From IMG/VR virus record IMGVR_UViG_3300007276_000012, positions 1-45,532 of that record: a stretch of 45,532 bases of DNA. One strand, written 5' to 3'. The translations under genes were made by a program, and so were the position numbers. Positions 4,968-27,402 of the stretch are shown here, piece by piece (position 1 is the stretch's first letter; the number at the start of each line of letters is the position of its first letter). A model generated the notes under the pieces. It searched no databases and was not told the origin of the DNA. It saw only the letters and a program-made list of their open reading frames with translations. This DNA is from a virus.

Positions 4968-5023
4968 TGTACATTTAGGTCATGGGCGCTTCACATCGGG
5001 GCGCTATTATTGGGAGTGATAAA

Positions 5024-11797: not shown

Positions 11798-11921
11798 TAA
11801 AGGAGTGCTGCGGAAGTCGAGACACACAATCCGGCTTTTACGGCGACATGTAAAGTTAGCTAGTGCCTCACTAACGACGCTTGATACTCGATCGAATCTT
11901 ATTCGGCTGGTGACTTAGAAG

Positions 11922-12073
11922 CACGCCCCACGTAAGGTGAATATGCCGCATTTTACCGTGTAAATCACCATGCGAATAAAATTTTAATTTACCTCGGTTA
12001 CGTCTAACGCGACGTTACGGGGCTGCAAGGTGTCAGTGCCTTGCCACTTACGGATCACCTCCCGTGGGGCGTG
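11922..12073 (-). repeat. 17-bp two-part inverted repeat with nested hairpins
   Basis: CACGCCCCACG pairs with CGTGGGGCGTG (11 bp). After a 2x2 internal loop, AGGTGA pairs with TCACCT. The enclosed 114 nt holds GCAAGG/CCTTGC, ACGTC/GACGT and a bulged CGCAT..TTTAC/GTAAA..ATGCG hairpin. Confidence 0.85.
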
Positions 12074-12130
12074 TGCCGAGTAATGTGATGTCTGTGTGAC
12101 CAGCTAGTAATTTAAGTCAGACAATTATCA

Positions 12131-12222
12131 CATTGTGAATACCCTTCCGATTGAACGGTTCCTCAATCCTTGGCGTGGCGAGGGCTAACAGCTGCTCCCA
12201 ACTTTAAAGGGTATTCACAATG
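12131..12222 (-). repeat. Perfect 16-bp inverted repeat
   Basis: CATTGTGAATACCCTT at 12131-12146 and its exact reverse complement at 12207-12222. The 60-nt loop contains a second stem, GATTGA/TCAATC, and on the minus strand AGTTGGGAG and GTTCAATC, which resemble D-arm and T-arm sequences. Confidence 0.9.
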
Positions 12223-12248
12223 TACGCTCGTAACGTGAGCGACCCGAA

Positions 12249-12332
12249 TGTGATGGTGGGACTCGAACCCACGAATACCGTCAGCACAATGTTATTGCTA
12301 CTATCGGCGGCTTACCATTTGCGGACATTACA
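12249..12332 (-). tRNA. tRNA-like element B (degenerate)
   Basis: 84 nt. Acceptor TGTAATG/CATCACA pairs at 6 of 7 positions. The T-arm GTGGG-TTCGAGT-CCCAC is perfect. The D-arm region AAATGGTAAGC looks tRNA-like. The central hairpin TAGCA/TGCTG has a 9-nt loop, ATAACATTG, rather than a 7-nt anticodon loop. Starts 8 bases after element A. May be a decayed class II tRNA or a domain of the larger RNA. Confidence 0.4.
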
Positions 12333-12340
12333 TTGTTAAA

Positions 12341-12421
12341 GTGTCTGGTATGATTCGAACCTACACTATCGTTCACGATGTGCTACCGACAGGTCGCGAC
12401 CCCGATTAACACTACAGACAC
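12341..12421 (-). tRNA. tRNA-like element A (degenerate)
   Basis: Acceptor stem GTGTCTG/CAGACAC is perfect (7 bp). The T-loop is canonical TTCGAAT on a stem with one mismatch. U8 is present and the D-loop contains GG. An extra CAC-ATCG-TGAA-CGAT-a-GTG hairpin occupies the variable-arm place. The anticodon arm cannot be built convincingly (no U33), so no isotype is given. Flanks extend the acceptor helix to 16 bp (12415-12430 with 12332-12347), unusual for a processed tRNA. Confidence 0.4.
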
Positions 12422-12554
12422 CTTAACAATATAATAAACCGCGTGGGCGGTAACGGCTCTTTGCCAGTCAAGATTTTAAATAACGCGTCTTGTGAGAACT
12501 GTTATTATACGGGGGTAGTGCCGTTATCTACCTTTACGCGTTCACCGTACAAAC

Positions 12555-12584
12555 ATTATTAATCAATCGTGACATGCTTGTCAA
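12555..12584 (-). promoter_or_regulatory. Promoter for the ncRNA unit
   Basis: Minus strand: perfect TTGACA (12584-12579), 18-nt spacer, AATAAT (5 of 6 matches to TATAAT); TAATAA with a 17-nt spacer is the alternative. It sits 4 bases after the hub stop codon. A partial copy of the phage dyad (TTGACaagcatGTCAc) overlaps the -35. Confidence 0.65.
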
Positions 12585-13740: not shown

Positions 13741-14387
13741 TAACCTAACACCCCTTGAGCTTGTGATAATGGTGCTGGAAGCGGTGCAAGCCCTTTAATC
13801 TCACCACGATTGTTTAACGCGCTAGCTTGCGATGCGCTCGGGTCGTTTGGGTTCAACTGTGACGACAACGGTTGATTTTTAGCGATTACCGTCGATAGTT
13901 CGGGGAACTCTTGTAAATCCGCTTCGAATATTAAACCCCCTTCGTTCGATGCGTCTTTGGTGCGTCGAATCCTGGCGATGACCATATTTTTGAGCTGTAT
14001 ATCACCAGCGTCAATGTCGAACGGTTCACCAGTGGTCATAAGCGTTAAAAGTAATTCGAGTGCAGAGCTTGAACGAGTTTCGTCGCTACCAGCGAGAAAA
14101 CCAGCCGACAAACCCGCAACGGTTGACAATACGCCAGAATCGAAAAAGTTAGACAACCCGCCGCCGACAAAATCGGTGAAGTTCGGACCAAGTGGTGTGT
14201 TACTAATCGCCCCGACGAGTGACCATCTGAACGGGTTTATAATACGGTGATCACTTGCGCGGGCGCCCAACTCAATGGGGTAACTCGTTAAATCCACAGT
14301 TGCTTCGAACGTATCTTCAAGAACGGCGTCAAACTCGATACCAGCTAGCGTCGGCGCTTTGGCGACAAATATATTAATCAGTGACAC
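13740..14387 (-). CDS. Dit-like tail/baseplate protein
   Basis: 215 residues from a GTG at 14387 with GAGGGGG just upstream; the longer reading from 14441 would overlap the tape measure gene by over 50 bases. The N-terminus, FDAVLEDTFEATVDLTSYPI then ELGARASDHRI, is the hallmark of Dit-like proteins (PxExG then DH). C-terminus is Pro/Ala/Gln-rich. Probably joins tube and hub. Confidence 0.65.
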   Translation of the reverse strand: MSLINIFVAKAPTLAGIEFDAVLEDTFEATVDLTSYPIELGARASDHRIINPFRWSLVGAISNTPLGPNFTDFVGGGLSNFFDSGVLSTVAGLSAGFLAGSDETRSSSALELLLTLMTTGEPFDIDAGDIQLKNMVIARIRRTKDASNEGGLIFEADLQEFPELSTVIAKNQPLSSQLNPNDPSASQASALNNRGEIKGLAPLPAPLSQAQGVLG

Positions 14388-14388
14388 G

Positions 14389-15534
14389 TTACCCCCTCGT
14401 TGACGATGAAATATCGTCGATAGCTGTTTGTGCCATTCCATCTACCACACGCACCACGCGACGGTCGATAACTTGCCCGTCGAGATTTAACGACACGTTG
14501 ATATTCTGTGTCGAGTTCGTTGATGTTTTGTGTTGCTGTAAACCCGTGGAATTAAACTCATCGGTCACGACGTTAGGTGCACTATTATTGAATAATTCGG
14601 GAAACACGTTCCGAACAGGGTCTGTTACCCAATCCGGTATGATTGAATCGTTCGGGACGGGGTAAGAATAACGACGTTGACCCTCCGATAAACCCGCAGC
14701 CACGTCTAAGCTGTGAAGTTGGTCCGCAACAAGTGCAGCGTCGTTTGACGTTGCTGTACCGAGTACACCGCGAGTGACAGCTCCGACCGTTTTAAATATA
14801 TCCAAGCGCTCCGACGAAAACCACGAGTTTATTTTACCCGTTATGTCATTAATCACCGGTAAAATCTCAGCGCCGATAGTTTCACCTACTGATTTTATAT
14901 TAGCGTTTAACTCAGTGTTATTTATTTTAAATTCGTTAGCGTCAGCCGCCCTACCAGGCGTGATATCAGTGTTAATCTCTTTATATTTAGCGATTAAACG
15001 TGACACCTCGTTACTACCTTTTGACAGCAACAATAAACCCGCTTCATCAAAACCTAGCGCGTCGGCCATGTTTATACGTTGAGTTTGTGTTGCGTTTTTA
15101 AACTGTTCAGCTATCAACGTGAGTGCTTGAACTGAGTCAGTGGCGTTAATAATGTCATTAGCGTCACCCTGTGCTATACCAAATGACGCAATAAAACTAG
15201 CGTCACCTTTTTCTAAACCGGCTCTGAAACGTTCAAGTTTCTCAAGTGAACCCATAGCGCTTTCAAGTGACCCACCTGTTTCTGTGAACGCAAAACCCAA
15301 CGCTTTCACGTCGTCAGCAACAACCCCGTAAATTTTGCCGAAATTCACAAGTTTGTTAGTTTCGTCAGCAAAACCTTGACCGAGTTTGAACGCACCAAAC
15401 GCACCAGCGACGACCGCGCCGAGTTGTAGCGCTTTGGATTTTATCGAATCAATGCCAGATTCGACTTGTGTTGCCGATTTCTTGTCGTATGAAAAACCTA
15501 TACCTACGAGAAACGAACTAATGACATTAGACAT
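14389..15534 (-). CDS. Tail tape measure protein (short)
   Basis: 381 residues from the ATG at 15534, which has GGTGG upstream; an earlier start at 15624 would overlap a promoter. N-terminal helix, then Ala/Gly-rich VVAGAFGAFKLGQGFADE, a hydrophobic segment typical of tape measure proteins, then helices (ESAMGSLEKLERFRAGL, FDEAGLLLLSKG). Order chaperone, then tape measure, then Dit/hub supports the call, though a plus-strand cassette separates it from the chaperone. Short for a tape measure, implying a short tail. Confidence 0.75.
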   Translation of the reverse strand: MSNVISSFLVGIGFSYDKKSATQVESGIDSIKSKALQLGAVVAGAFGAFKLGQGFADETNKLVNFGKIYGVVADDVKALGFAFTETGGSLESAMGSLEKLERFRAGLEKGDASFIASFGIAQGDANDIINATDSVQALTLIAEQFKNATQTQRINMADALGFDEAGLLLLSKGSNEVSRLIAKYKEINTDITPGRAADANEFKINNTELNANIKSVGETIGAEILPVINDITGKINSWFSSERLDIFKTVGAVTRGVLGTATSNDAALVADQLHSLDVAAGLSEGQRRYSYPVPNDSIIPDWVTDPVRNVFPELFNNSAPNVVTDEFNSTGLQQHKTSTNSTQNINVSLNLDGQVIDRRVVRVVDGMAQTAIDDISSSTRG

Positions 15535-15608
15535 AATGACCACCGTGTATTTAATTGTTGATAGTATAACACGCGATGCGATATTAAAAAATAATTGAGT
15601 TCGTATGG

Positions 15609-15637
15609 TTGACAACGTCGTCAATAGTGTTTAATAT
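15609..15637 (+). promoter_or_regulatory. Promoter with TTGAC-N6-GTCAA operator
   Basis: TTGACA (15609-15614), 17-nt spacer, TAATAT (15632-15637). The -35 is one arm of the dyad TTGAC-AACGTC-GTCAA (15609-15624). The sequence through AATAGTGTT is nearly the same as the promoter at 20747. Drives the three-gene plus-strand cassette. Confidence 0.75.
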
Positions 15638-15668
15638 CTAGTTATCGAAACAAAACTAGGAGTAAATT

Positions 15669-15827
15669 ATGGAACAAGGTCAACTATCTAGAGCACGTAA
15701 CGAAATTACGCGGTTACGTCACACACTTGTCGCTATGACTAGTGTCGCTATATTACTAGCGTTCGGTGCAGTGATGTTAGCGTTTGAAGTGTTGGAACTG
15801 CACGACAAAATGGCGGGTGTGTTATGA
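15669..15827 (+). CDS. Small membrane protein (52 aa)
   Basis: ATG with AGGAG 7 bases upstream. Basic N-terminus (SRARNEITRLRH), one transmembrane segment (VAMTSVAILLAFGAVMLAF), short acidic tail. Stop overlaps the next start (ATGA). First gene of a promoter-driven cassette inserted opposite to the tail operon. Function unknown. Confidence 0.7.
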   Translation: MEQGQLSRARNEITRLRHTLVAMTSVAILLAFGAVMLAFEVLELHDKMAGVL

Positions 15828-16180
15828 ATAAAACCACGAGTGACGCCGTTATACATTACTGCGGTAAATGGCCGAAGTTGAGTTACGGTAAAAATTGGAT
15901 CGTGTATCGTAACTCAGACGGGTTCGAAAACTGGTCATTGTGGGACGATGGCGAATTAAACGAAACGTGGCAGCGAGTTTGCACACGTGAGCAATTCGAA
16001 CAACACACGTCGCACAACGTGAACACCGAGGGGATGCAGGGCGACGTTAAAGAATTTTACAAAGACGGACAACACGCGAAACACGGTGATAAAAATCCGT
16101 ACAATCGACTAACACAAGTTAGAGCGTTTCACAGTTGGTCTGCCGGTTATTGTGATAAACATGGGGAGTTACCTAAATGA
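15824..16180 (+). CDS. Hypothetical protein with RMF-like C-terminus
   Basis: 118 residues. Aromatic-rich N-terminal half (YGKNWIVYRNSDGFENWSLW) and a C-terminal GDKNPYN-x-RAFHSWSAGYCDKHGE that recalls short ribosome-modulation-factor-like NPY..W..G sequences in phage proteins. The similarity is faint. Translationally coupled to both neighbours by ATGA overlaps. Confidence 0.6.
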   Translation: MNKTTSDAVIHYCGKWPKLSYGKNWIVYRNSDGFENWSLWDDGELNETWQRVCTREQFEQHTSHNVNTEGMQGDVKEFYKDGQHAKHGDKNPYNRLTQVRAFHSWSAGYCDKHGELPK

Positions 16181-16731
16181 TTAAAACACTTAAAGGTTTG
16201 TTAACTGTAGCGGCAAAGAAAGACATTCGTTACTATTTGAACGGGGTTCACGTTGTTTGCGATAGCTCGGGTGTTGTCAAACTTGAAGCGTCTGACGGTT
16301 CAACTGGTATGATACTCACGATCACGTCGGGTATGTTTAACGTAGCGCCCAATACTGACGTGATATTGTGTGGCACGTCGCTCGCTAACCTGTTAAAACT
16401 ATTCGGGTCAAAAGCTACACCAACGTTCACAATTAACAACGAGTCGGCGCGCATCGGTGAATACAATGTGGACTTAATCGACGGACGTTATCCAGATTTA
16501 GCGCGCGCAATGCGTTTGAACGAAACGGGTACATTTACAGGTGATGAAATTGGGATGAACTTTACGCTATTGGGTAAATTATGCAAAGCGTGTGAATTAG
16601 TTTTACATGGTCACACTTTTAAAACTGGTTTGTTTAAATTCCGAGACGCTTCAACGTCATTGCTAATTTCTAGAAAATTTAACGATGATAAAGACTTGTT
16701 ACAAGTTGCGATAATGCCGACACGTATATAA
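16177..16731 (+). CDS. Sliding-clamp-like (DnaN-like) protein
   Basis: 184 residues. AAKKDIRYYLNGVHV then VKLEASDGSTGM, and VDLIDGRYPDLARAM, resemble the conserved starts and the DGRFPDY motif of beta-clamp domains. The length fits about one to one and a half clamp domains (a full DnaN subunit is about 370). Such short clamp-like proteins occur in phages and may bind or replace the host clamp. Last gene of the cassette; ends at a bidirectional terminator. Confidence 0.6.
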   Translation: MIKTLKGLLTVAAKKDIRYYLNGVHVVCDSSGVVKLEASDGSTGMILTITSGMFNVAPNTDVILCGTSLANLLKLFGSKATPTFTINNESARIGEYNVDLIDGRYPDLARAMRLNETGTFTGDEIGMNFTLLGKLCKACELVLHGHTFKTGLFKFRDASTSLLISRKFNDDKDLLQVAIMPTRI

Positions 16732-16732
16732 C

Positions 16733-16762
16733 AAAACACCCCTACGATGGGGCGTTTTTTTT
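16733..16762. terminator. Bidirectional terminator between convergent genes
   Basis: AAAACaCCCC-tacgat-GGGGcGTTTTTTTT: the A and T tracts pair around a GC core, so it can act on both strands. It lies at the end of the clamp-like gene (plus) and overlaps the end of the tail chaperone extension frame (minus). Confidence 0.85.
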
Positions 16763-16966
16763 AGCTGCGATGATCATTTCTTCGATTACATTGTGGAATC
16801 GTAACACGTCAGCAATTGAATACGTGCCGTCGTTCAATTCGGCCCATGTGCAGAGTGGTGGACATAACCCCACAACTCCAACACATGGTGTCATCATAAA
16901 CCAATCGGTTAACCCTTCACGCTCTTTGCTTGTGCTCGACGCGCGGCGTTTTCGCTGTCGAGCCAA
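16742..16966 (-). CDS. Tail chaperone extension in -1 frame (probable frameshift product)
   Basis: Open frame -1 relative to the chaperone, overlapping its last about 19 codons and running about 55 residues beyond the stop (DWFMMTPCVGVVGLCPPLC, TWAELNDGTYSIADVLRFH). Frames of this kind are fused to the chaperone by -1 slippage in many tailed phages. No textbook heptamer is present; CGAAAAC and GCAAAG in the overlap are the best slip candidates. Independent translation cannot be excluded. Confidence 0.5.
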   Translation of the reverse strand: MARQRKRRASSTSKEREGLTDWFMMTPCVGVVGLCPPLCTWAELNDGTYSIADVLRFHNVIEEMIIAAKKNAPS

Positions 16967-17304
16967 GTAAAATAATCGCCAAGGTTAAACATAATCGCTT
17001 CAGCTACTAATTTAAAATAGCTCGTCATCGAACCTTGAAAATTAGCGAGCGTTACGGGTGTGTCGGTTCCAGCGATAAACGCTTTACGTAATACCACATT
17101 AGATATTTCGTCAAACGTCGATTCAGGTAACGACATCAACAAACCGAACAACATCGTCGAGTCGATTTCTAACGTATCGGTCGTAGCGCTATTAAAAGCA
17201 ATTTTAGCGCCGATGTGTAACATTATTTTTTTCTGTTCAACAGCCGAGGCTTGCGCTACGTTGTATTGAACATCATTAATCGTAATGGCCCGTATTTGTG
17301 ACAT
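16909..17304 (-). CDS. Tail assembly chaperone (short form)
   Basis: 131 residues. Mostly helical; starts SQIRAITINDVQYNVAQASA, ends NLGDYFTWLDSENAARRAQ before its stop. Located between tube and tape measure genes, the usual place of tail chaperones, and overlapped by a -1 frame that extends past the stop. The short product likely keeps the tape measure soluble with its frameshifted partner. Confidence 0.7.
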   Translation of the reverse strand: MSQIRAITINDVQYNVAQASAVEQKKIMLHIGAKIAFNSATTDTLEIDSTMLFGLLMSLPESTFDEISNVVLRKAFIAGTDTPVTLANFQGSMTSYFKLVAEAIMFNLGDYFTWLDSENAARRAQAKSVKG

Positions 17305-17717
17305 TAGTTAGATCCCTTAGTGGCAGTCCAGCTATTAAACTCCATAGTGAACTGGTCATCGCTGACAGTTGTACCAGCTCGGTTCATCGCTGCGTCGTTT
17401 GTGATCACGCCTTCCGTACCGATAGCCGCTTCGAGCGTACCAATTTGAGTCCACGACAAAGTGATATCCGCGTTAGAGTTAAACAACCCTTGCATATACG
17501 CCGAGTCTTGCGAACCTGGGTTAAAGTAAACGTTAACAGTACGTCCGGGGTTTTTGCGATTCAAACGTATAGCTCGACCACCTTGACCACGGCGAAGCGT
17601 GACTTTAGGGTCGATAGGTGCATCACTATACGGACTAGCCGTTTCACCCCATTCTTCCATTAAACGACCGTTGATAGTCAGTACGGAACTATCGGGACCA
17701 AAATTATTTAAAGCCAT
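17304..17717 (-). CDS. Tail tube protein (DUF3277)
   Basis: 137 residues. LNNFGPDSSVLTINGRLMEE near the start, then GRTVNVYFNPGSQDSAY and a C-terminal DDQFTMEFNSWTATKG, match the DUF3277 tube family that follows a DUF3383 sheath. The chaperone follows with a one-base overlap. Forms the inner tube of the contractile tail. Confidence 0.8.
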   Translation of the reverse strand: MALNNFGPDSSVLTINGRLMEEWGETASPYSDAPIDPKVTLRRGQGGRAIRLNRKNPGRTVNVYFNPGSQDSAYMQGLFNSNADITLSWTQIGTLEAAIGTEGVITNDAAMNRAGTTVSDDQFTMEFNSWTATKGSN

Positions 17718-17729
17718 TTTAAAGCCCTC

Positions 17730-18872
17730 TTAGTAAACGTTGATATCAACAGGCACTGAATGAATCGCGCCCTTACGGAAAATACGGATACGTAACGGTG
17801 CAGATTTACGTGCCGCGCGGTCTGGGTCGGTTAGGTTCAAAATATCTTCGGGTTTCGTTAAAATCTCGTAACCTTCGGTAAATTTCAACACACCGTCGTC
17901 AGGGTCGATATAATTACGAGGACCTAAGAACCCGTTATTAATGTACTGTTGACAGAACGCTTTAGCCGCACCGATTAACACCGATTGGCCGACAGGGTCT
18001 TGACCAAGTTTAGTCGGCTGGTTTGCAACGGCGTTGTATAGGTTAACACTCGCAGCGTTCGAGAATGCCGCTAAGTTAATCACGTCGTCCATGTATTCGC
18101 CGTATGATGAATGTGACCACGAGTTAATAACACGACCAGCATCAACGGCACCTTGTAACTCGACCTTAGTGTAGAACATACATTTTTTAGTCGGTTGGGT
18201 CATCGCTGCGTATGCTGTGCCCGTCAAATCTTCACCAGCGACACCAGACAATACTTTAAACTCACCGGTAATTGTTGAGTTAATCGCACTGTAGTTCACT
18301 TTAGCGAACGGTACGCATAACTTGATACCTGCATACGGGTCGGTCGCGTGTGCCAGTGTACCAGCGAAGCGATAGCCCGACGTGGTTAACAGCGTTGCGA
18401 TGTCTGTAGCTAGGTTCGGATCACGAATAGCCGTGGCATTAGCGCCAGTTTGACAGTTCATAAACCACGATAAATTATCGTTCGACCATGCCGCAATAGC
18501 TTGAACGTCAGCGGTTGACGCGTAAACAGGCGCAGTAAAGAACGAGTAAAACCACCAAAAGGCGTTACGGGCTTTATTAAGCGTAGCTGTCCAAGTCGCG
18601 TCGGCGTCAGCAGTACCCCAAATAGTTAGCGAGTTCATACGCGGCGTACCGGATAACCAGTATCGCGCCATTTTGTACGTTTCGGTTGTGTCGGCAAAGT
18701 CGACAGCCAAATCGGTTAAGTTTGAGTATACACGGCGCGTATCGACGGCAAAACCGACGGGTAGCTCCGACTCTGGGGCAAATCCACACGCTGAACCGAA
18801 GTTGGCTGTGCCAAGTCCTTGCGGCGCTATAAGCGTGTTGATCTGAATAATATTATCAACATTAAAAGACAT
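17730..18872 (-). CDS. Contractile tail sheath (DUF3383)
   Basis: 380 residues; ribosome binding site AGAGGA 9 bases upstream. DUF3383 features: VDNIIQINTLIAPQG near the start, a Trp-rich central part (FWWFYSFF, NDNLSWFMNC), and the C-terminal sheath region (YINNGFLGPRNYIDPDDG, RIFRKGAIHSVPVDINVY). Main contractile protein of the tail. Confidence 0.85.
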   Translation of the reverse strand: MSFNVDNIIQINTLIAPQGLGTANFGSACGFAPESELPVGFAVDTRRVYSNLTDLAVDFADTTETYKMARYWLSGTPRMNSLTIWGTADADATWTATLNKARNAFWWFYSFFTAPVYASTADVQAIAAWSNDNLSWFMNCQTGANATAIRDPNLATDIATLLTTSGYRFAGTLAHATDPYAGIKLCVPFAKVNYSAINSTITGEFKVLSGVAGEDLTGTAYAAMTQPTKKCMFYTKVELQGAVDAGRVINSWSHSSYGEYMDDVINLAAFSNAASVNLYNAVANQPTKLGQDPVGQSVLIGAAKAFCQQYINNGFLGPRNYIDPDDGVLKFTEGYEILTKPEDILNLTDPDRAARKSAPLRIRIFRKGAIHSVPVDINVY

Positions 18873-18910
18873 TTAGGTTAATCCTCTTGATTGCAATCTT
18901 GAACAGTATA

Positions 18911-19459
18911 CTACACACCCACACTATCTTCTAGCACGACTGTACCGTCCTCTAGCTCAACCTGCCAGCTAGCCGACTCGATGTTATTCATCGCGACGGT
19001 TTGACGCGTCTCATACATCAAATAAATGTAAATCTGTGCTCGTTGTTCAGGGTTTCCCGATTGTAACCGTGTGAGGTTATTCGGTGCACTGGTACGTTGC
19101 CAACCAATACCGGCAGCACGTAACGCGGCGCTAACATCGGGGCGCTTGTTGCACTGTAACAGACGTTCGACACGACTCAACGCATCAACACCACGAAACA
19201 CGTTTACGGACGCTTCAACGATAACCTGGGCGCGTGGTTCGACGTCTATTGAGCGAGGCGTTAAACTCGTTGAGCGATACATGTTCGCTTGACCACGTTC
19301 GGATATGGATTGTTTGGGCTCAATCGTGGCGTACTCGCCAGCGGGTGACGGTAACCCCACGCCTGAGCTATCAACTTGATCTGTTAATATAACCGTCGTC
19401 AAACCCGTAACGAGTTTAACGATCGGTTGTAATACTTGAAATATCTCTAAGCGTGTCAT
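18911..19459 (-). CDS. Neck terminator-like protein
   Basis: 182 residues. LPSPAGEYATIEPKQSISERG, VEASVNVFRGVDALSRVERL and IYIYLMYETRQTV match phage neck/tail terminator proteins of the gp12-like (LIC12616) type that precede sheath genes. Overlaps the preceding stop by 4 bases. Probably caps the tail at the neck. Confidence 0.65.
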   Translation of the reverse strand: MTRLEIFQVLQPIVKLVTGLTTVILTDQVDSSGVGLPSPAGEYATIEPKQSISERGQANMYRSTSLTPRSIDVEPRAQVIVEASVNVFRGVDALSRVERLLQCNKRPDVSAALRAAGIGWQRTSAPNNLTRLQSGNPEQRAQIYIYLMYETRQTVAMNNIESASWQVELEDGTVVLEDSVGV

Positions 19460-19818
19460 AGTTGCACATCCAAACGGCTAACAATGGCCTTACAGTAATT
19501 ACGCCACGGGCGATTATCTAACTTGTGACACTTCCACGTTTGACCAGCGAATGTCCACAAATCAGATTGTTGGATACTCGCGTCGATCCCGTCGTTAACG
19601 TAAATACGTCGAGCGTCGATAATACGTTCCCCACCCTTTTCGAGCGCTTCGATTTCGCGGTCACTGGCGGGCTGAACGGTGACAGTGTGTGACGTCGTTA
19701 CGCTCGTACCGTCTTGCCAAATACCGTCGGTGTCGTACCCGCCGTTAGTGCGTGCAGTCCGTGTAGCTGGTCCCGATTGAAACGTCGAGTCGACGTGGCC
19801 TAACATTGATAAAGTCAT
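19456..19818 (-). CDS. Head-tail joining protein (head closure)
   Basis: 120 residues. SDREIEALEKGGERIIDARR, followed by DLWTFAGQTWKCHKLDNRPW, is a pattern of head-closure/neck proteins in this region of Bcep-type genomes. Position between the virion morphogenesis protein and the tail terminator supports the role. No specific family named with certainty. Confidence 0.6.
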   Translation of the reverse strand: MTLSMLGHVDSTFQSGPATRTARTNGGYDTDGIWQDGTSVTTSHTVTVQPASDREIEALEKGGERIIDARRIYVNDGIDASIQQSDLWTFAGQTWKCHKLDNRPWRNYCKAIVSRLDVQL

Positions 19819-19821
19819 TTG

Positions 19822-20424
19822 TTACAATCCCTCGGTAGGTTTACCGCTATCGATTTTATACGTGACGCTTTGGCGCATCGCTCCCGAATCTATCAGCGGA
19901 TTTGACGAACCTTTCTTTTTGATCGTGCTTGCCGCGTTCGGCGGTGTGCGTAAATCCGTCATGTATTTTTGAACCTTACCGACCGCCACGACCCCGACCT
20001 TGTTTAACGCCTGTTCGGGTGTGCCGCCGTCGGCCATTGTTTTCTCGATGATACTCAGGTATTCGTCGTTACCACTCGCAACGCCAGGGCTAAGCCACGG
20101 GCGGGCAGGTATTTTAATCACGTGTGGGCCTGTGACACCCAACTCCATGTAACCTTTGCCTGATTTTAAAAACCTCACTTCGTTACGATCCGATGCGGCT
20201 TTACTCGCGTAACCGTAGGACGTGCCGCCGGGGTGATTAATATCCGCGCCGAACTCGTGAACCGCACCAAGTCCCGCCATGGTTAAATCGTCCGACTCGA
20301 CGTTGCCCGCATCCTCGTGAATACCAATGGTCACAAATTTGTCAGTCATCAACTCGCGCAACGCCTTTTGAATAGCGTCACGGGCTTGTTGTACGTTGAT
20401 CACAGTCACTTTAGGTTTTATCAT
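19822..20424 (-). CDS. Tail completion / virion morphogenesis protein (HK97 gp10-like)
   Basis: 200 residues from the ATG at 20424; no good ribosome binding site is seen there, so a start up to 20511 is possible. GLGAVHEFGADI and the later IPARPWLSPG are family hallmarks, followed by helices and GAMRQSVTYKI at the C-terminus. An inverted repeat, TATAAC-acgc-GTTATA (20434-20449), lies just before the start and could be an operator. Confidence 0.75.
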   Translation of the reverse strand: MIKPKVTVINVQQARDAIQKALRELMTDKFVTIGIHEDAGNVESDDLTMAGLGAVHEFGADINHPGGTSYGYASKAASDRNEVRFLKSGKGYMELGVTGPHVIKIPARPWLSPGVASGNDEYLSIIEKTMADGGTPEQALNKVGVVAVGKVQKYMTDLRTPPNAASTIKKKGSSNPLIDSGAMRQSVTYKIDSGKPTEGL

Positions 20425-20518
20425 GTCGTCGATTATAACACGCGTTATAGTACCCTGCACTAACCCCACAATAAAATAAGGTCGGGGCGTTATTAAGAAT
20501 TTAAAAATCAATCACTTA

Positions 20519-20746
20519 TCACTCTTACCTCTATACCTTACTTTTTAATAACTGTAAGAATTATAAGTATGTATATAGTATATACAGTATGGATCATACA
20601 TACTTATACAGATAATATACAAGAATACTATAGAGAGTATCGAACGATACGGGGTTTGTAGTATAAACAAGGTAACTCTTTCGAATCAACACGTTACGCC
20701 ACCTCAAACACCGTGTCATTACCTCAAAGTTCGGGTAAATGAATGA
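20519..20746. promoter_or_regulatory. AT-rich control region, copy A
   Basis: No gene. Contains ACCTCTATACCT, a run of TATATAGTATATAC-type alternating AT, AGAGAGTATCGAACGATACG with a GTATC/GATAC hairpin, then GAATCAACA and ACCTCAAAC. The same elements occur in the same order at 34380-34590, so the two regions share an origin. Both lie where minus-strand operons face plus-strand genes. Candidate divergent promoter region or replication origin. Confidence 0.7.
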
Positions 20747-20774
20747 TTGACAACCGCGTCAATAGTGTTAGTAT
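20747..20774 (+). promoter_or_regulatory. Promoter with TTGAC-N6-GTCAA operator
   Basis: TTGACA, 16-nt spacer, TAGTAT; the dyad TTGAC-AACCGC-GTCAA covers 20747-20762. Nearly identical to the element at 15609, including the shared AATAGTGTT. Drives the lipoprotein gene. Confidence 0.75.
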
Positions 20775-20826
20775 ACAAATCAGACGACGGAGATTCGCTT
20801 CGTCGCGTTAACGAACGGTGAACGAT

Positions 20827-21192
20827 ATGAAAAAGATTATTAGTATATTTTTAGTTTTGGGTTTATTTGGTTGTAGCGATGCGATGGTCGCGTCAAGTAA
20901 TTTGTCAAAAGCGTCCGACATGTTCGAAATAGAAAGAAGAATAGTGTTTTACAATGGTATAACTGGAGAATACATGTTATCCATTGAAGGATTATGTTCC
21001 ATATCACCAGACTCTACAAAGGTGGCAGTGACATGTAAAACTGGAAAAGATGAATACAAGAAACATTATCTTGGTTTATCTGACAATGTGACTTACTTCG
21101 CCGAACAGATTGAATCGTCAGGTGTAGGTGTTGATAGTTACCGCGTGATATTTAAACCATCGGCGATTATACCAGACATCGAACTGCATTAA
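20827..21192 (+). CDS. Phage lipoprotein (beta-sandwich type)
   Basis: 121 residues from the ATG at 20827 (a GTG 9 bases earlier is less likely). Lipoprotein signal MKKIISIFLVLGLFGCS with lipobox LFGC. The mature part is all-beta (RRIVFYNGITGEYMLSIEG, HYLGLSDNVTYFAEQI), resembling beta-sandwich lipoproteins of temperate and lytic enterophages. Codons are more AT-rich than its neighbours, and it has its own promoter inside the virion operon. Surface lipoproteins of this kind often block receptors against superinfection; here that is inference. Confidence 0.75.
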   Translation: MKKIISIFLVLGLFGCSDAMVASSNLSKASDMFEIERRIVFYNGITGEYMLSIEGLCSISPDSTKVAVTCKTGKDEYKKHYLGLSDNVTYFAEQIESSGVGVDSYRVIFKPSAIIPDIELH

Positions 21193-21204
21193 CCACCTCA
21201 ACAC

Positions 21205-21228
21205 CCGACACGTTACGTAACGTGTCGG
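21205..21228. terminator. 24-bp perfect palindrome between convergent genes
   Basis: CCGACACGTTAC directly followed by its reverse complement, with no spacer. It lies between the lipoprotein gene (plus) and the DUF4054 gene (minus). No T tract follows, so it may be a cruciform or weak bidirectional terminator. Confidence 0.5.
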
Positions 21229-21237
21229 ATCAACTCA

Positions 21238-21672
21238 TTAAACCGCGCGCGCACCCATAGCTGAACGTCTACGTAACCTAAGATATTGAACGCCATATGA
21301 CGTCAACGATAGAAAATCATCTTCCGCCGACTGTATGGCCGTTATGCGAAAGCTAACCGACTCGTCACCCACCGATTTAGCAGCTAGGTTAAGACGTGCC
21401 GCTGCATCGATTTTCGACGGGTCAGTAGCACCCGCTGCCGTGTTGTAAGTGATACTCAACCAGTGGGCGGCGTAAAAGAACATGCCGCGACGCTTGAAGT
21501 TACGACAATCGTTAATATCCAATACGCCCCATCGCGAAACTGAACCCGTTTCTGCGTCAGCTTCACAAACCGCCTCTGTGACCACGCCATCAGGCCACTT
21601 CGTTAAGTCGCTGAACGCCGGTTGTGCGCTGCGAAACGCTGTTAATAATTCCGCTGTTATTGGTTCGCTCAT
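21238..21672 (-). CDS. Head-tail connector (DUF4054)
   Basis: 144 residues. FRSAQPAFSDLTKWPDGVV then VTEAVCEADAETGSVSRWG and MFFYAAHWLSITY are DUF4054 hallmarks; the C-terminus SLTSYGVQYLRLRRR is typical. First connector ring on the portal. Start overlaps the preceding stop. Confidence 0.8.
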   Translation of the reverse strand: MSEPITAELLTAFRSAQPAFSDLTKWPDGVVTEAVCEADAETGSVSRWGVLDINDCRNFKRRGMFFYAAHWLSITYNTAAGATDPSKIDAAARLNLAAKSVGDESVSFRITAIQSAEDDFLSLTSYGVQYLRLRRRSAMGARAV

Positions 21673-22247
21673 AATAAATCACCGTTCGGGAAATCTAATT
21701 CACCTTCGTAAAACTCGATACGTGCCGCGACTTCTTGGTTAGCCGAGTCGAGCGATTCAATTGTCAATAAATATGACGTGTTTGGTTCAAGTATTCGATT
21801 CGTTGCATAACTCGACGTGCTAGACCCTGTTGTTTGGTTCGTGTCGGGGCCAATAGCGTATATCGGTGCGCCACATTGTACGCCGTTATCAGTCAGCGTG
21901 AAACCGGTTAGTAACTTAGTTAACGGTAAACCGCCCGACGTACTCATGTTGTATAACGGATCCTCAACACCACCAGTATATGACGGGTTTTTATAAATGC
22001 GCGCAATAACGCCCGCTTGACGATACGCAAATTCGCGCTTTTTCAAGTCCACAGGTAATGCACCGACTTGTAAAATCGATGTGACGACAGCCTCGGACGA
22101 TACGGTGACCATCCGCGACGCCTCCCACTGTACGCCCTGCTTTTTATTCGCTTCGTCGTACGTCTGCACACAAAACGCTTTCAACGAGTTCACGACTTGT
22201 ATCATGATGTTGTCAGCATTAAGTATTCGCCAAAACTTAGGGTTCAT
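21669..22247 (-). CDS. Hypothetical virion protein
   Basis: 192 residues. Mixed alpha/beta; middle region IYKNPSYTGGVEDPLYNMS and a C-terminal SYLLTIESLDSANQEVAARI that looks like a beta-sandwich. Lies between the esterase-bearing protein and the DUF4054 connector, in the operon order of virion genes. No family recognised. Confidence 0.6.
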   Translation of the reverse strand: MNPKFWRILNADNIMIQVVNSLKAFCVQTYDEANKKQGVQWEASRMVTVSSEAVVTSILQVGALPVDLKKREFAYRQAGVIARIYKNPSYTGGVEDPLYNMSTSGGLPLTKLLTGFTLTDNGVQCGAPIYAIGPDTNQTTGSSTSSYATNRILEPNTSYLLTIESLDSANQEVAARIEFYEGELDFPNGDLL

Positions 22248-22262
22248 TTTAATTTCTTAGTT

Positions 22263-22282
22263 TAGCCGCTGGTTAGGCGGCT
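22263..22282 (+). terminator. Hairpin with T tract on plus strand
   Basis: AGCCGC-TGGTTAG-GCGGCT followed by TTTTG on plus. On the minus strand, the direction of the surrounding genes, it lacks a T tract, so there it may act as an RNA processing or stability hairpin. Confidence 0.45.
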
Positions 22283-22293
22283 TTTTGTTTATG

Positions 22294-23901
22294 TTAAATT
22301 GCTTGGTTAGCGTAAGCAATCCCCATTAGCCTCTGCGCTACAGCCGAGTAATGCAATTTATCTGCCTCATCCCATCGCATCGCATCAGCAAGCAAATCAA
22401 CCCCAGCGTCAGTTTGTGTTACGTAAACTGTATTTGCATTTTCAGCTACAATTTGTTGATAACGAGCGTTGTTATACCAAGTTGGGTTTGCAACCTGACC
22501 CAAAATAACTTTAGCATTAGCAGGCCACCCACCGACTATTCTAGCCTTCATGTCGTTAAACATTGCGTTCCATGCTGTAACGTATTCTTGAGTCGTTAGT
22601 GATACATCCCCTTCACCCTGTACCCAGACCATGCCCGCAATTTCACCGCCCGCAGCAACAGCAGCGTTAATCATTGCAAGATGAGTTTCGTACAGTGTAT
22701 CAGTTGGATTCCAGTCATTTGAGCTGAAACCTGTGGCGCCTTTAGCTGTTGGAACCAATGCTAATCGTTGATCATTATTTGACGCTAACATAGTGTTAAA
22801 CATTGACATGTATGCACCAATGTTTATGGCTCCAGTACCAACGTCAAAATCAGCCGCCATGTGCAGATCTTCAAATCCTGTATTGTCTCTTAGCCAGCTA
22901 TACGCATTTTGGTTGTTGTCATCTAATATATCACCAGAAATGTTGTTAACAGTTCCAAGTCCAACTTGCTGCCCTACGGCATTAGACTGACCAGCAAATA
23001 TCCACAACTTAAATGGGCCTGTGGATTTTGCAGCATTGTTGTAAGTGGAACGATATAGGTTAAATTTATTAATAGCGGCTTGAGCTAATAAATACTCATC
23101 ATTTGGTAAACCCTTACAAATCATAACGGTATGAATTTCAGCGGTCGTACCTTTGTTGTCACTTAAATCATTTGCCAATAACTTAAATGTTGAGGTTCCT
23201 GCACCTGAAAACCCATACGTACCAACAGATGTTACTTGCGATGCTAAAACATCATTACGCCATGCTCGCTGCTTGTCTGTTGCTGTGCCTAGACACACAC
23301 TCCCGAACGTGCCAGACTGAAACCCATCAGATTCGCAATAGCCACCATTCGCAAAGTTAAACGTACTCCCTGATCTAATTTTATTACTGTAACCGCTTTT
23401 AAATATTGACGTTTCACCGTTAATTTTTGTAGCTCTACCATAGACCGTGTACTGGTTTTCGTCTGATCGCGTGTATCTAAATCCACGACCATGCACTACT
23501 GTTGATATATCATGCCAATTTAGCCCAGTTCCGTCATAACCAGTATCTACGTAGTTGTTACCGTCACCTTTGAGGCTGTTAACGAATAGCGACGAATCAA
23601 TAGTCGTAGGCATTTGATAGCCAACTGCTTGTGTTGGATGGAATATGCACCGCAATCTATCAGATGGGGAGCTACCAACACAGGGTGCTAAAAATAGTGT
23701 ACCCGCATCTTTTGATGTAGAAATGGTCGGAATAGAAAGCAGTTCGTTTGTTAGTGTATTCAGCGCTATTATGTCGCTAGAGCTACCGACCCAGCCACCA
23801 TCTATAAATGATTGAGTGTACTGATTTGGCGTGACGACGACACCCCCGCCACCGAAGAACAGTTCACCGACTTCGGGCGGGTTTCCCGCCAGCCAAGCCA
23901 T
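22294..23901 (-). CDS. Virion protein with jelly-roll lectin and SGNH esterase domains
   Basis: 535 residues. N-terminal about 25 residues are Gly/Val-rich; about 100-290 look like a concanavalin-type jelly roll (GNNYVDTGYDGTGLNW, NKGTTAEIHTVMI). The C-terminal SGNH/sialate O-acetylesterase-like domain has WIFAGQSNAVG (nucleophile S306), WVQGEGD (about 427-433) and D514-x-x-H517 in EADKLHYS. Likely a capsid or neck appendage that binds and deacetylates surface glycans. More AT-rich than the neighbouring head genes, suggesting separate acquisition. Confidence 0.75.
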   Translation of the reverse strand: MAWLAGNPPEVGELFFGGGGVVVTPNQYTQSFIDGGWVGSSSDIIALNTLTNELLSIPTISTSKDAGTLFLAPCVGSSPSDRLRCIFHPTQAVGYQMPTTIDSSLFVNSLKGDGNNYVDTGYDGTGLNWHDISTVVHGRGFRYTRSDENQYTVYGRATKINGETSIFKSGYSNKIRSGSTFNFANGGYCESDGFQSGTFGSVCLGTATDKQRAWRNDVLASQVTSVGTYGFSGAGTSTFKLLANDLSDNKGTTAEIHTVMICKGLPNDEYLLAQAAINKFNLYRSTYNNAAKSTGPFKLWIFAGQSNAVGQQVGLGTVNNISGDILDDNNQNAYSWLRDNTGFEDLHMAADFDVGTGAINIGAYMSMFNTMLASNNDQRLALVPTAKGATGFSSNDWNPTDTLYETHLAMINAAVAAGGEIAGMVWVQGEGDVSLTTQEYVTAWNAMFNDMKARIVGGWPANAKVILGQVANPTWYNNARYQQIVAENANTVYVTQTDAGVDLLADAMRWDEADKLHYSAVAQRLMGIAYANQAI

Positions 23902-24173
23902 TACACGACCCCGCTTACACTAACAGCAGCACCTGACGTGCTCCACGCCCATGCGCCCGCGTCGCCCGCTTCGTTCTTCGCGGTGATACCTGGTCGTAAC
24001 AACGTGGAACCACTCGAACCCGTGTTTGGTGACGTAGCACCCGAGTAAACGCGAACGTCACTTGTGGTGATGTTTTGCACGCTGATTTGAGTGCCGACAG
24101 CTATACCGCTCGCAGCGTACAAGTCAACGGGAGTATTAGCAGGTAATGGAACGTTCGGTAATGTGTCAGACAT
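23901..24173 (-). CDS. Small beta-rich virion protein
   Basis: 90 residues, Ser/Thr/Gly-rich beta sequence (GTQISVQNITTSDVRVYSG, WAWSTSGAAVSVSGVV). It shares one base with the start of the esterase gene, so the two are coupled. Possibly the anchor of that protein on the capsid (inference). No family recognised. Confidence 0.6.
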   Translation of the reverse strand: MSDTLPNVPLPANTPVDLYAASGIAVGTQISVQNITTSDVRVYSGATSPNTGSSGSTLLRPGITAKNEAGDAGAWAWSTSGAAVSVSGVV

Positions 24174-24186
24174 TTCAATGGTCCTT

Positions 24187-24211
24187 AAAAAAATGGCCGC
24201 ACGTAGCGGCC
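24187..24211 (-). terminator. Rho-independent terminator after the HeH protein gene
   Basis: Minus strand GGCCGC-tacgt-GCGGCC followed by AT and seven T. It would limit transcription from the capsid genes into the connector genes, a common way to set capsid protein excess. Confidence 0.85.
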
Positions 24212-24217
24212 TTAATA

Positions 24218-24574
24218 TTACTCAGCGTCAGCGTCTTGCAACTTCGACACTAGTTCAGCTTTTGTGTCGCGTGAATTAACTTCGATGTCACGCGCTTCAC
24301 ACAATGCCACAATGTCGGTTTTCGACATATCAGCGTAACTGTCTGCGTCGGTATCGTCATCAACAACATCAACAAGCGTCACGTCGTCTTCACTTTCAAC
24401 AACGAGTGAACCGTCTTCGATTAACGCTTGTACGAACGCGCAGTCACATAATTCGTTTGGCACTTCGACCGATGGGTTTTTGCCCGGTTTAATTTGGTAA
24501 GCTGCAGAACGCGAACCGTTTTCAAATTTACCGTTGATTGTGATCAGTCGTGCTTTAGTGTTTTTTAATAACAT
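24218..24574 (-). CDS. HeH/LEM-domain head protein
   Basis: 118 residues, GAGGG before the ATG. N-terminal beta part (ARLITINGKFENGSRSAAYQ), an Asp-rich linker, and a C-terminal helix-extended-loop-helix, SKTDIVALCEARDIEVNSRD then TKAELVSKLQ, of the HeH/LEM/SAP-like class seen in phage head proteins. Follows the major capsid gene after a large hairpin. Confidence 0.7.
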   Translation of the reverse strand: MLLKNTKARLITINGKFENGSRSAAYQIKPGKNPSVEVPNELCDCAFVQALIEDGSLVVESEDDVTLVDVVDDDTDADSYADMSKTDIVALCEARDIEVNSRDTKAELVSKLQDADAE

Positions 24575-24603
24575 GATATTAGCCCTCAGCCCGTTGATTA
24601 AAC

Positions 24604-24652
24604 TGAATCGATACGGTGTGGCGGGCCTTCCACATTGTTCCGTATCGATTCA
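24604..24652 (-). other. Large RNA hairpin after the capsid gene
   Basis: TGAATCGATACGG (24604-24616) pairs perfectly with CCGTATCGATTCA (24640-24652), 13 bp, and TGTGG/CCACA continues inside. It begins 6 bases after the capsid stop. No T tract, so an mRNA stabiliser or RNase III site fits better than a terminator. Confidence 0.75.
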
Positions 24653-24658
24653 AACTTG

Positions 24659-25657
24659 TTACAGTGCGTCGCGATATGCTGCGCTGAACGGAAATCTAAA
24701 CTCAGTTCCTGAAATTTTGTACTCTGCTGGTACAACAATACTCAGGTTCTTCATCTGCGGTGCAATTGCACGCCACGGAATAGGATTACACATACCCAAG
24801 TTATCGTCGTTCAACTCATACGCTAACATACGGTCTTTACCACCTAAACCCGCACCAGTTAACTGTAAGCGCGGGAAGATGCGTAACGGTTGACCAGTTG
24901 TAGTGGTGTACAAATTGTTCTGCATGAAGAACTGTAAAATAGTGGTATCTGTACCGCTATCCATACGACGCGAACTGATAGTAGCGTAACGAGCCGAAGC
25001 AATCGCCAACGCGTTAGGTAAGTGAGTGTTAGCTGAGTTGATCCACACTTCAATCAGAAGTGAGTTCATATCGTCCACAATCTCTTGACCTGTCGCAGTA
25101 GCCCAATCGACAGTAGAGTTATCAACAGCTAGGTTCGGGTTGTTAAATAGACCAAACATACCACGAGCAGCGTCACCGAAGTAAGCCACACGCTGTGAAT
25201 GCTCTTGTGAACCACGGAACGCAGCGCGACCTTTAGTCACATCGATTGGAATACGCATTTGTTGAGTTTTACGTAATTCGTCTAACGAGTAGTCGAACGA
25301 GTTACCAGCGTAACCAATAGGCACTGACGTCTTGTTAGCGCTTAACGCTACGTTCGGTAGGTCGTCAGCACTTGAGCCGATGAATTTACCAAGCGTTACA
25401 GCGTCGTAACTAATGTAATCCCACGAGTCGGCCCATTCTGGTACGGCTGTGTTAACTGGGATCATTTCAGCGAAGTTAATCGCCGTGTATTTTGCTTCGT
25501 AAATCTTAGCTTCTAAGTTAGCAAGTTGTGAAATATAGAAGCCCATGCCGTCGTCCATAGTCGGCAAACCGTCGTTAAACGATACGACGTGACCAGCTTG
25601 TAAACCTAAATGAGGGTATTCCGCATCTAGCGTCATTGTGATTTTATTGCGGTTCAT
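24659..25657 (-). CDS. Major capsid protein (DUF2184)
   Basis: 332 residues, start preceded by GGGGG. Family regions: FYISQLANLEAKIYEAKYTA (N-terminal helix), MIPVNTAVPEWADSWDYISY, RAAFRGSQEHSQRVAYFGD and the C-terminal VVPAEYKISGTEFRFPFSAA. DUF2184 proteins are encapsulin-like HK97-fold capsid proteins of Bcep-type phages. Upstream protease and cement-protein genes agree. Confidence 0.85.
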   Translation of the reverse strand: MNRNKITMTLDAEYPHLGLQAGHVVSFNDGLPTMDDGMGFYISQLANLEAKIYEAKYTAINFAEMIPVNTAVPEWADSWDYISYDAVTLGKFIGSSADDLPNVALSANKTSVPIGYAGNSFDYSLDELRKTQQMRIPIDVTKGRAAFRGSQEHSQRVAYFGDAARGMFGLFNNPNLAVDNSTVDWATATGQEIVDDMNSLLIEVWINSANTHLPNALAIASARYATISSRRMDSGTDTTILQFFMQNNLYTTTTGQPLRIFPRLQLTGAGLGGKDRMLAYELNDDNLGMCNPIPWRAIAPQMKNLSIVVPAEYKISGTEFRFPFSAAYRDAL

Positions 25658-25659
25658 GA

Positions 25660-26142
25660 TTAACCCCCTAAACCTAATGAAATTTTAACTAACTGACCAG
25701 CGTCACCGCCGGTTAAGAATTTAGCGTTCGGTAACAGTACACCCAGCGTTACACCTGTGCCAACAATACCAGAGAAGTCACCAGCACCGGTCGCACCGAC
25801 ACGTAAATATACTGGGGCGTCTTTAGCAACTGTATCAAGTACAGTAACCCAAATCACACCTTCGGTAACAACGGTCATATCGTACTTAGCAGTAGCACCC
25901 GTTTCGGTTGCTGTGCGTGCGCGGTTCAATTCGTACTTAACGACACCGTTAAATTGTGCAGCGGTTGACGCGGGTACTGGTAATTTAGCACCGTCTTCAC
26001 CGTCTGTCACAACGCCTTTACCGTAAGCGATACCCACGGTGCCCTTGTTTAATTTCGAAACAGTGTTACATAACTGACGGTCAGCGACCATACCAGCATA
26101 CGCGACACCATGATCAATAGCATTGCCACCTAATACGGCCAT
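25660..26142 (-). CDS. Head decoration / structural cement protein
   Basis: 160 residues from the ATG at 26142 with perfect AAGGAG 7 bases upstream. Gly/Ala/Val-rich beta protein (GGNAIDHGVAYAGMVADRQ, KYDMTVVTEGVIWVTV) of the kind found between protease and capsid genes (gp24/DUF2190-like cement). Start directly follows the protease stop. Confidence 0.7.
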   Translation of the reverse strand: MAVLGGNAIDHGVAYAGMVADRQLCNTVSKLNKGTVGIAYGKGVVTDGEDGAKLPVPASTAAQFNGVVKYELNRARTATETGATAKYDMTVVTEGVIWVTVLDTVAKDAPVYLRVGATGAGDFSGIVGTGVTLGVLLPNAKFLTGGDAGQLVKISLGLGG

Positions 26143-26143
26143 G

Positions 26144-27226
26144 TTAAGCTCCTTTCCAAGCGTTAGCCTGTTTGTCTTTAAATTGTGCGTAACCACTCGG
26201 TTTAGCGTCTACAACGACAGCAGGGTTAGCTGCGTCTTTAGCGAACTGTGCCATCTGGTCAACTGGTGACGGTTCGCTGATTGCCATGTCGAACGACGCT
26301 TGTACGTACACGTCGGACTTGGTAACCCAATCAATCGTTGGACGTTTAGCTGTCAGTGCTGCGCGTTGAATGGCCACAACATCGACGCTATCACACGTGA
26401 ACGTATCGCCGACCATTTTAACGGCCTGAGCGAGAACAGTGGAAATAGCTTCAACACGTTCGGCAATTGCCGCGTCGGTTGTTTTCGCTTTTTCGGCGTC
26501 TAATTCTTCTTTCGTCATGTCGCGTTCTGCTTCGGCTTTTTCGGCCTTGGTTTCAGCGTCGGTGACTCGTTGCGATGCAAGTTTAAGAGCATCCGTTACA
26601 AGCTTGGCGCTCGCTTCGTCTGCAACTTCTAGTGTCGCGCCCGAATCAAGTATAATCTTGAACATGGGTGTTACTCCTTCGTTGTCGTATAAGCGAGCCT
26701 GTGCACCAGCTCTAGCTCGGTCGCAGATCGCAATGTGGTTAATCTTAATGTCGCGTTGAACAAACTCATAGTTCTCGCCGAGTTCAGTGGTTCCGTTAAC
26801 TTTATCATAAACAGCGGTGTAACCCGCCGACAATTGTACTTTACCAGATTCTACGGCTAAAATCGCATCTTTCGATTTAATTATTAAATTCGCTTCAACA
26901 AAATCACCGTCTCGAATGGCTGGACCACGAACAACACCTACTGTGGTTGATTTATAGTTGGCAGCATTAACTAACTCGGTGGGGTGGTTTAACGTGACGT
27001 CACACGATTCATATGATGCTAAAGAGTCAATGTTAAACACTTCGTCTGACGGGCGATATACGTTGACTATTTCATTCGGTTGACGGTCAGTTAAACCCAA
27101 TTCAGACGCAAGGTATTGTTGAATACCGGTGCGAGCTACACGACCAGGTACAACTAGAAAACCCTCGTCGGTATAAGTGCGTTTAGTTATGTTGTAGCTA
27201 GTTCTATCGTTTACCGTGACTTTCAA
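26144..27226 (-). CDS. Head maturation protease with scaffold-like tail (DUF2213)
   Basis: 360 residues. DUF2213 features: DEVFNIDSLASYESCDVTLN then HPTE (likely catalytic His), SGKVQLSAGYTAVYD (likely catalytic Ser), INHIAICDRARAG. The C-terminal half (about 210-260) is a charged coiled coil (ETKAEKAEAERDMTKEEL), probably the scaffold released by cleavage. Starts at TTG, as no ATG lies nearby; own promoter upstream. Confidence 0.8.
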   Translation of the reverse strand: MKVTVNDRTSYNITKRTYTDEGFLVVPGRVARTGIQQYLASELGLTDRQPNEIVNVYRPSDEVFNIDSLASYESCDVTLNHPTELVNAANYKSTTVGVVRGPAIRDGDFVEANLIIKSKDAILAVESGKVQLSAGYTAVYDKVNGTTELGENYEFVQRDIKINHIAICDRARAGAQARLYDNEGVTPMFKIILDSGATLEVADEASAKLVTDALKLASQRVTDAETKAEKAEAERDMTKEELDAEKAKTTDAAIAERVEAISTVLAQAVKMVGDTFTCDSVDVVAIQRAALTAKRPTIDWVTKSDVYVQASFDMAISEPSPVDQMAQFAKDAANPAVVVDAKPSGYAQFKDKQANAWKGA

Positions 27227-27260
27227 CGTCTTAAACTCACTGTTCGAATCAAATGTGATA

Positions 27261-27292
27261 ATTATATGCTTGTTTGTAAAATTTTACAAACA
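27261..27292 (-). promoter_or_regulatory. Promoter with 22-bp palindromic operator before the protease gene
   Basis: Minus strand TTGTAA (27289-27284), 17-nt spacer, perfect TATAAT (27266-27261). The -35 and spacer lie in the perfect palindrome TGTTTGTAAAA / TTTTACAAACA (27271-27292). It reads into the protease and capsid genes, so the capsid block can be switched separately from the terminase block. Confidence 0.75.
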
Positions 27293-27339
27293 TATTAGTT
27301 TGTCTCGTTTTTCGAAGTTGTCTTGCTTCCACAAAGGTG

Positions 27340-27382: not shown

Positions 27383-27402
27383 TGAATGGAGTAATACAAA
27401 TT

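Follow-up and report, generated by a model that had tools for sequence, protein, structure and literature searches.

A TTGAC-N6-GTCAA dyad fused to promoters as the probable operator of a miniature TetR-type regulator in phage genomes

Introduction

In phage P1 a single repressor, C1, acts on many operators dispersed over the genome; unlike the system described below, it is an unrelated protein with different, asymmetric sites and a proven function in immunity. The L5-type immunity repressor of mycobacteriophages, with its stoperators, likewise combines one phage repressor with many genome-dispersed operators, but its sites are asymmetric and its role in immunity is proven (PMC9283540), and the protein is unrelated to the one of this study, which has a TetR fold and whose proposed sites coincide with promoters. 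TetR of Tn10 is an autoregulated repressor whose tetO consists of two palindromes of about 15 bp set 11 bp apart over its own promoter (spacing as given in PMC9736018). E. coli RutR is another TetR protein, which recognizes a palindrome of about 16 bp (PMC10891134). Among phages, the tetR-like genes of phiPLPE, CP-T1 and 138 have been treated as co-opted bacterial osmotic-stress regulators, with no operator, promoter or regulon reported (PMC3391216).

Here we describe the dyad TTGAC-N6-GTCAA, which is most probably (probability roughly 0.8, judged from sequence) the operator of a phage-encoded mini-TetR autorepressor (41131-41460), its dispersed sites serving to shut down early and accessory promoters. 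The likeness to Tn10 extends to the 11-bp gap, which also separates the sites 41489-41504 and 41516-41531, but the present system is phage-borne, lacks the ligand-binding domain, has many dispersed targets and uses a 16-bp operator. RutR shares the family, the operator length and a similar skeleton, and the genes of CP-T1 and 138 are homologues of the gene at 41131-41460.

Results

The window, by which we mean the whole stretch of DNA analysed, is an entire IMG/VR record (IMGVR_UViG_3300007276_000012), a virus contig of about 45.5 kb (45,532 bases). A tandem-repeat gene (units like CCCGAAGTAGTAACGCCACCTGTCGTTGATGCG) covers both of its ends, at 44851-45532 and 1-266, and since both ends lie inside one repeat-rich gene, we probably have a circular map that was opened within the repeat. 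Megablast of positions 14000-30000 against phage records gave no match. Elsewhere, the primase at 38473-40863 carries an NrS-1 polymerase-like HBD domain (Pfam PF22763) together with DUF5906, and 42175-42768 encodes a Mom-like DNA modification protein (phrog_1384).

The preliminary description of this DNA had listed exact TTGAC-N6-GTCAA dyads at 15609, 20747, 27367 and 38483; all four are present, and a fifth, overlooked at that time, lies at 4947-4962. The genome-wide scan that it had proposed thus gave five exact copies against about 0.1 expected by chance (0.09-0.17 per genome in Markov genomes of order 1 to order 4), and at least three exact dyads were found in none of 1200 simulated Markov genomes. 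When spacers of 0-29 were compared for the TTGAC/GTCAA pair, more than one match was obtained at N6 only. TTGAC was the top-ranked 5-mer for N6 dyads in the window, and an unbiased dyad scan placed TTGAC-N6-GTCAA at rank 1 in the window, in the IMG/VR relatives G001 and G004 and in phage MSW-3. With a PWM trained on 42 sites of relatives only, the five exact window sites took ranks 1-5, each at E<=0.05. The check for intergenic enrichment, also proposed before, was made in three annotated relatives, in which exact dyads were concentrated in noncoding DNA (JD001, 6 of 7; MSW-3, 4 of 5; CP-T1, 4 of 6; 14 of 18 in total), the noncoding fraction of these genomes being 10%, 11% and 6%, respectively. 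Two exact window sites overlap coding DNA, one at the very 3' end of polA and the other at that of primase. Sites with one mismatch at 1335 and 33588 are within coding DNA, of the exonuclease and the terminase gene respectively, and were not counted as operators. Exact and degenerate sites together, ten operator copies are spread over eight regions of the window, a dispersed arrangement of the L5/P1 type (Table 1).

Table 1. Putative operators, associated promoters and the proposed regulator in the window
Feature	Coordinates	Strand	Sequence	Promoter element	Location or predicted target
Operator, exact dyad	4947-4962	+	TTGACGCCATTGTCAA	TTGACG-17-TACATT (+), -10 at 4970-4975	polA 3' end; serves small gene at 5118
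Operator, degenerate	12569-12584	-	GTGACATGCTTGTCAA (on + strand)	leftward promoter	noncoding tRNA-like block 11826-12568
Operator, exact dyad	15609-15624	+	TTGACAACGTCGTCAA	TTGACA-17-TAATAT (+), -10 at 15632-15637	cassette 15669-16731 within virion operon
Operator, exact dyad	20747-20762	+	TTGACAACCGCGTCAA	TTGACA-16-TAGTAT (+), -10 at 20769-20774	lipoprotein-like cassette gene, ~20818-21192
Operator, exact dyad	27367-27382	+	TTGACGATATTGTCAA	TTGCAA-17-TATATT, -35 at 27340-27345; dyad over -10 TATATT (27363-27368)	small-gene cassette 27403-29212
Operator, exact dyad	38483-38498	-	TTGACAATTCCGTCAA (minus strand)	TTGACA-17-TAATCT (-), -10 at 38475-38470	primase gene 3' end; leftward small-gene block
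Mini-TetR regulator, proposed binder	41131-41460	-			109 aa
tetR operator 2	41489-41504	-		covers -10 TATATT (41508-41503)	tetR promoter
tetR operator 1	41516-41531	-		covers -35 TTGACG (41531-41526)	tetR promoter
Operator	44786-44801	.		-35 of TTGACA-18-TAATAT	rightward replication promoter
Operator	44814-44829	.		-35 of TTGACG-18-TATTAT	leftward helicase/primase promoter

All the exact dyads overlap the -35 or -10 element of a plausible promoter, in good agreement with the preliminary description. Four of them include the -35, from which a -10 is spaced by 16-17 bp, and that at 27367 covers the -10 instead. The best -10 score at a distance of 16-18 bp averaged 4.29 bits at dyads versus 0.38 at other TTGACs (p=2e-21; 51 exact sites from 11 genomes, those of related genomes not being independent). 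The distance from site to start codon is 22-65 bp, except for 156 bp at the site after polA. The sequence AATAGTGTT, reported before as shared 3' of the dyads at 15609 and 20747, is indeed common to both. Counterparts of the 4947 site are located at the pol 3' end in G001 and G004, with different central bases; the layout at 27367 is repeated at G001 11629 and G004 3903, and the 38483 site is conserved in G001, G002, G003 and G004. The cassette gene at 20818-21192 encodes a lipoprotein-like signal; its matches are VG64 and a PHROG annotated as recombination directionality factor, a label that we regard as doubtful. As targets, the cassettes in the virion operon (n=3) and the small-gene block had been correctly named, but the list lacked the promoter of tetR, the divergent promoter of the replication genes, the post-polA gene and the tRNA-like noncoding block. 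Taken together, the copy number, the fit of the -10, the enrichment in noncoding DNA and the conservation in distant phages strongly support a multi-promoter regulon with a promoter-fused operator.

On its tetR and replication promoters the window has degenerate copies, each with a score of E 2-4. Of the imperfect copies mentioned in the preliminary description, 44786 was correctly positioned, but 12584 is the end of the site 12569-12584 and not its start; both are at chance level by score (E 2.1 for 44786 and E 1.3 for 12569-12584). The partner of 44786, at 44814, had been missed, as had the paired copies at 41489/41516 on the tetR promoter. The sites at 44786/44814, 41489/41516 and 12569 were accepted despite such scores because their placement is conserved in relatives: the 44786 site is found in G001, G004, G012, MSW-3, CP-T1 and others, the 44786/44814 pair in G001, G004 and G012, and the 12569 site is kept in place as ATGACTATGGTGTCAA in G001 and GTGACGATTATGTCAA in G004. 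The two tetR operators are separated by 11 bp, and paired dyads occur likewise in the tetR promoters of several relatives. Upstream of the small terminase gene, and likewise of the lysozyme gene, no site was found. The noncoding block 11826-12568 contains tRNA-like T-arms, GTGGGTTCGAGTCCCAC (12256-12273, minus strand) and GTAGGTTCGAATCATAC; ARAGORN found no tRNA, the block was not called as a gene, and Rfam on this block at 12 kb gave just a sub-threshold tmRNA T-arm match, with no gene called.

The protein encoded at 41131-41460 carries the N-terminal HTH of the TetR family (Pfam TetR_N, PF00440, E=3e-6, above the cut-off), the sole transcription-factor domain detected among the subset of window proteins scanned, and is assigned to phrog_8723. 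Its AF2 model (pLDDT 87) consists of a TetR DNA-binding domain plus a short helical tail and aligns with TetR DNA-binding domains such as that of KstR (model residues 8-71, Z 10.8). About 35-40 residues follow helix 4, and the full C-terminal ligand-binding and dimerisation domain (about 120-150 aa) is absent. A palindromic site over the own promoter, as for TetR family members, is present in sequence, with dyads at the tetR -35 and -10 in the window and in relatives. RutR differs by its length (212 aa), its full ligand domain, its host pyrimidine regulon and its recognition helix (KTNLLYYF versus TGQVNHIF), so that by helix and length the window protein is not a RutR orthologue. Homologues were found in 91 phage records; the longer ones (~166 aa; L014 (Scuro), L044 (SppYZU01), L118 and L121) have an apparent extra HTH-like domain on the N-terminal side of TetR_N.

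The number of exact dyads is bimodal, 5-9 in 10 of 21 phage records and 0 in the other 11. The carriers are Jedunavirus JD001, Geezett and KB2, the related RCIP0030, Peatvirus PEAT2, Acinetobacter LAPP1, Edwardsiella MSW-3 and PEi21, and Vibrio CP-T1 and 138; among the IMG/VR relatives, G001 has six and G004 five. In these ten phages and in several virus contigs with a homologue the sites, either exact or with the core (TGAC-N6-GTCA) in altered flanks, are located at the promoter of tetR, at the divergent promoter of the replication genes and at accessory cassettes. With few exceptions the dyad phages have a dyad on their tetR promoters, and none is present on those of VP16T, V1.009.O, CKB-S1 and PD0307. 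Likewise, dyad phages have 1-2 dyads on the divergent promoter that separates the helicase operon from the exonuclease operon; there, none is present in VP16T, V1.009.O, CKB-S1, R9Y2, AeroV_348 and 367.14, PD0307 having one weak half-match. A palindrome search in VP16T, V1.009.O, CKB-S1, PD0307 and AeroV_348 gave nothing convincing.

The recognition helix covaries with the dyad. Proteins from genomes with the exact dyad have G-x-[VI]-[NS]-[HFY] (for instance TGQVNHIF, MGSVNHHW and TGTVSFAF), and those from genomes without it have PALTYHF, PSLVYHY or TALIQYHF. In G006, G007 and G011 the helix LVSKVF is accompanied by an altered operator, TTGAC-N6-GTCAC, with 12-14 core sites per genome, a pairing that is, as read from sequence, a putative natural specificity switch; the core TGAC-N6-GTCA persists in these three and in Scuro. 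In a maximum-likelihood tree of tetR a single branch, weakly supported (79/82), sets the dyad-bearing proteins apart, the few apparent exceptions on their side being mostly short contigs. Related phages without tetR carried no exact dyads. As a reverse control, IMG/VR was scanned for the dyad with a perfect -10 and 47 of the resulting contigs were taken; a profile search detected a mini-TetR homologue in none of these unrelated contigs, which have 1-3 dyads each and one chance operator-promoter combination, and the same search detected the gene in 10 of 10 known carriers and in 0 of 2 related phages without it. The earlier suggestion that the TetR-like protein binds the dyad is thus supported in two ways, as a pair of dyads lies on the promoter of its gene and as the dyad varies together with the recognition helix among the homologues, and the same circuit most likely recurs in Klebsiella, Pectobacterium, Acinetobacter, Edwardsiella and Vibrio phages.

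In the clade of the window (window, G001, G003, G004 and G005), all 16 distinct exact sites, which represent about five orthologous positions and are not fully independent, are made up of a TTGACA half and a TTGACG half, and both orders relative to the promoter occur. The unequal halves persist while the central four bases have changed. That the asymmetry is caused by TTGACA serving as the -35 was rejected, as at 4947 and 27367 it is the G half that faces the promoter. In Klebsiella-type phages, G is found in both halves at 14 of 18 sites. The altered operator of the sister clade G006, G007 and G011 is unequal at its outermost base in 20 of 26 sites. Half-sites that are never identical in the window clade are not predicted by a simple homodimer.

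Discussion

From the observed sites, their excess, their fusion to promoters, their conserved placement and the helix covariation, we infer binding, dimer geometry, repression and timing as follows. A repressor dimer would place its recognition helices in the TTGAC and GTCAA half-sites, 11 bp apart centre to centre, or about one helical turn, matching the expectation for a dimer; the dimer itself is an assumption, because most of the TetR dimerisation domain is missing from the protein. Since the dyads contain the -35 or -10 hexamer, the bound dimer would exclude RNA polymerase, a block that is geometrically plausible. Operators on both the -35 and the -10 of the tetR promoter would limit the synthesis of the repressor itself; through 44786/44814 it would shut off the divergent replication promoter, and through the other sites the promoters after polA and primase and those of the accessory cassettes in the virion operon. 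As the terminase and lysis promoters are operator-free, its likely role would be the shut-off of early and accessory genes on the move to virion production.

Chance can account for little of this pattern. TTGAC is the -35 consensus and frequent in promoters, GTCAA might occasionally trail it, and the degenerate copies are at chance level on their own, but three copies were reached in 0 of 1200 simulated genomes, the strength of a -35 leaves GTCAA at one exact spacing unexplained, and 5-9 copies stand at corresponding places in distant phages. With a probability that is practically nil, a chance origin is refuted by multiplicity and conservation. Also highly improbable is that the phages exploit the site of a host regulator, such as a RutR-like TetR protein with the TTGAC-N6-GTCAA skeleton. 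RutR fits in family and in its palindrome of about 16 bp (PMC10891134). The E. coli rutA-rutR gap contains TGGACTAAACGGTCAA, one mismatch from the pattern. The RutR consensus is TTGACCANNTGGTCAA, from which the inner bases of the dyad mostly differ. Furthermore, the dyad tracks the phage-encoded TetR, down to the type of recognition helix, rather than the host, being present in Vibrio phages CP-T1 and 138 and absent from Vibrio phages VP16T, CKB-S1 and 367.14, and it lies on the phage tetR promoter.

A further reading keeps the same operator and protein but makes the latter a lysogeny or superinfection-immunity repressor instead of a shut-off factor of early genes; we consider this unlikely. 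CP-T1, described as temperate without known lysogeny genes, carries tetR (PMC3391216) and six exact dyads, the divergent replication promoter included, and dispersed operators over early promoters recall immunity systems. Against this, phage 138, called lytic (PMC3391216), shares the TetR protein and sites with CP-T1, and no integrase was detected among the window proteins scanned. When lysogens of dyad-bearing relatives were sought in bacterial genomes and plasmids, only primase relatives without dyads turned up, most of those in bacterial genomes also being without mini-TetR. Quite unlikely, too, is a more specific form, in which mini-TetR would be a ligand-free master repressor conferring superinfection immunity or a plasmid-like carrier state without recognised lysogeny genes, the unequal half-sites (TTGACA plus TTGACG) reflecting an asymmetric bound complex. 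If true, it would account for the reported temperate behaviour of CP-T1, for whose missing repressor mini-TetR is a testable candidate.

Returning to the early-gene shut-off factor, its components are already known one by one, namely the TetR fold, the control of its own synthesis and phage operators scattered over the genome. In the open-access literature searched, we found no description of a TTGAC-N6-GTCAA operator or regulon, nor, for dwarf myoviruses, the combination of a miniature TetR lacking the ligand domain and a dispersed regulon that is conserved. The homologues, in dozens of phages, many of them of Klebsiella, have so far been annotated just as TetR-like or hypothetical. With the proposed circuit, the mini-TetR gene gains a concrete candidate function together with a DNA site and a list of targets, which predicts the promoters that would be early and repressed, and the homologues offer a natural series in which each type of recognition helix comes with its matching operator.
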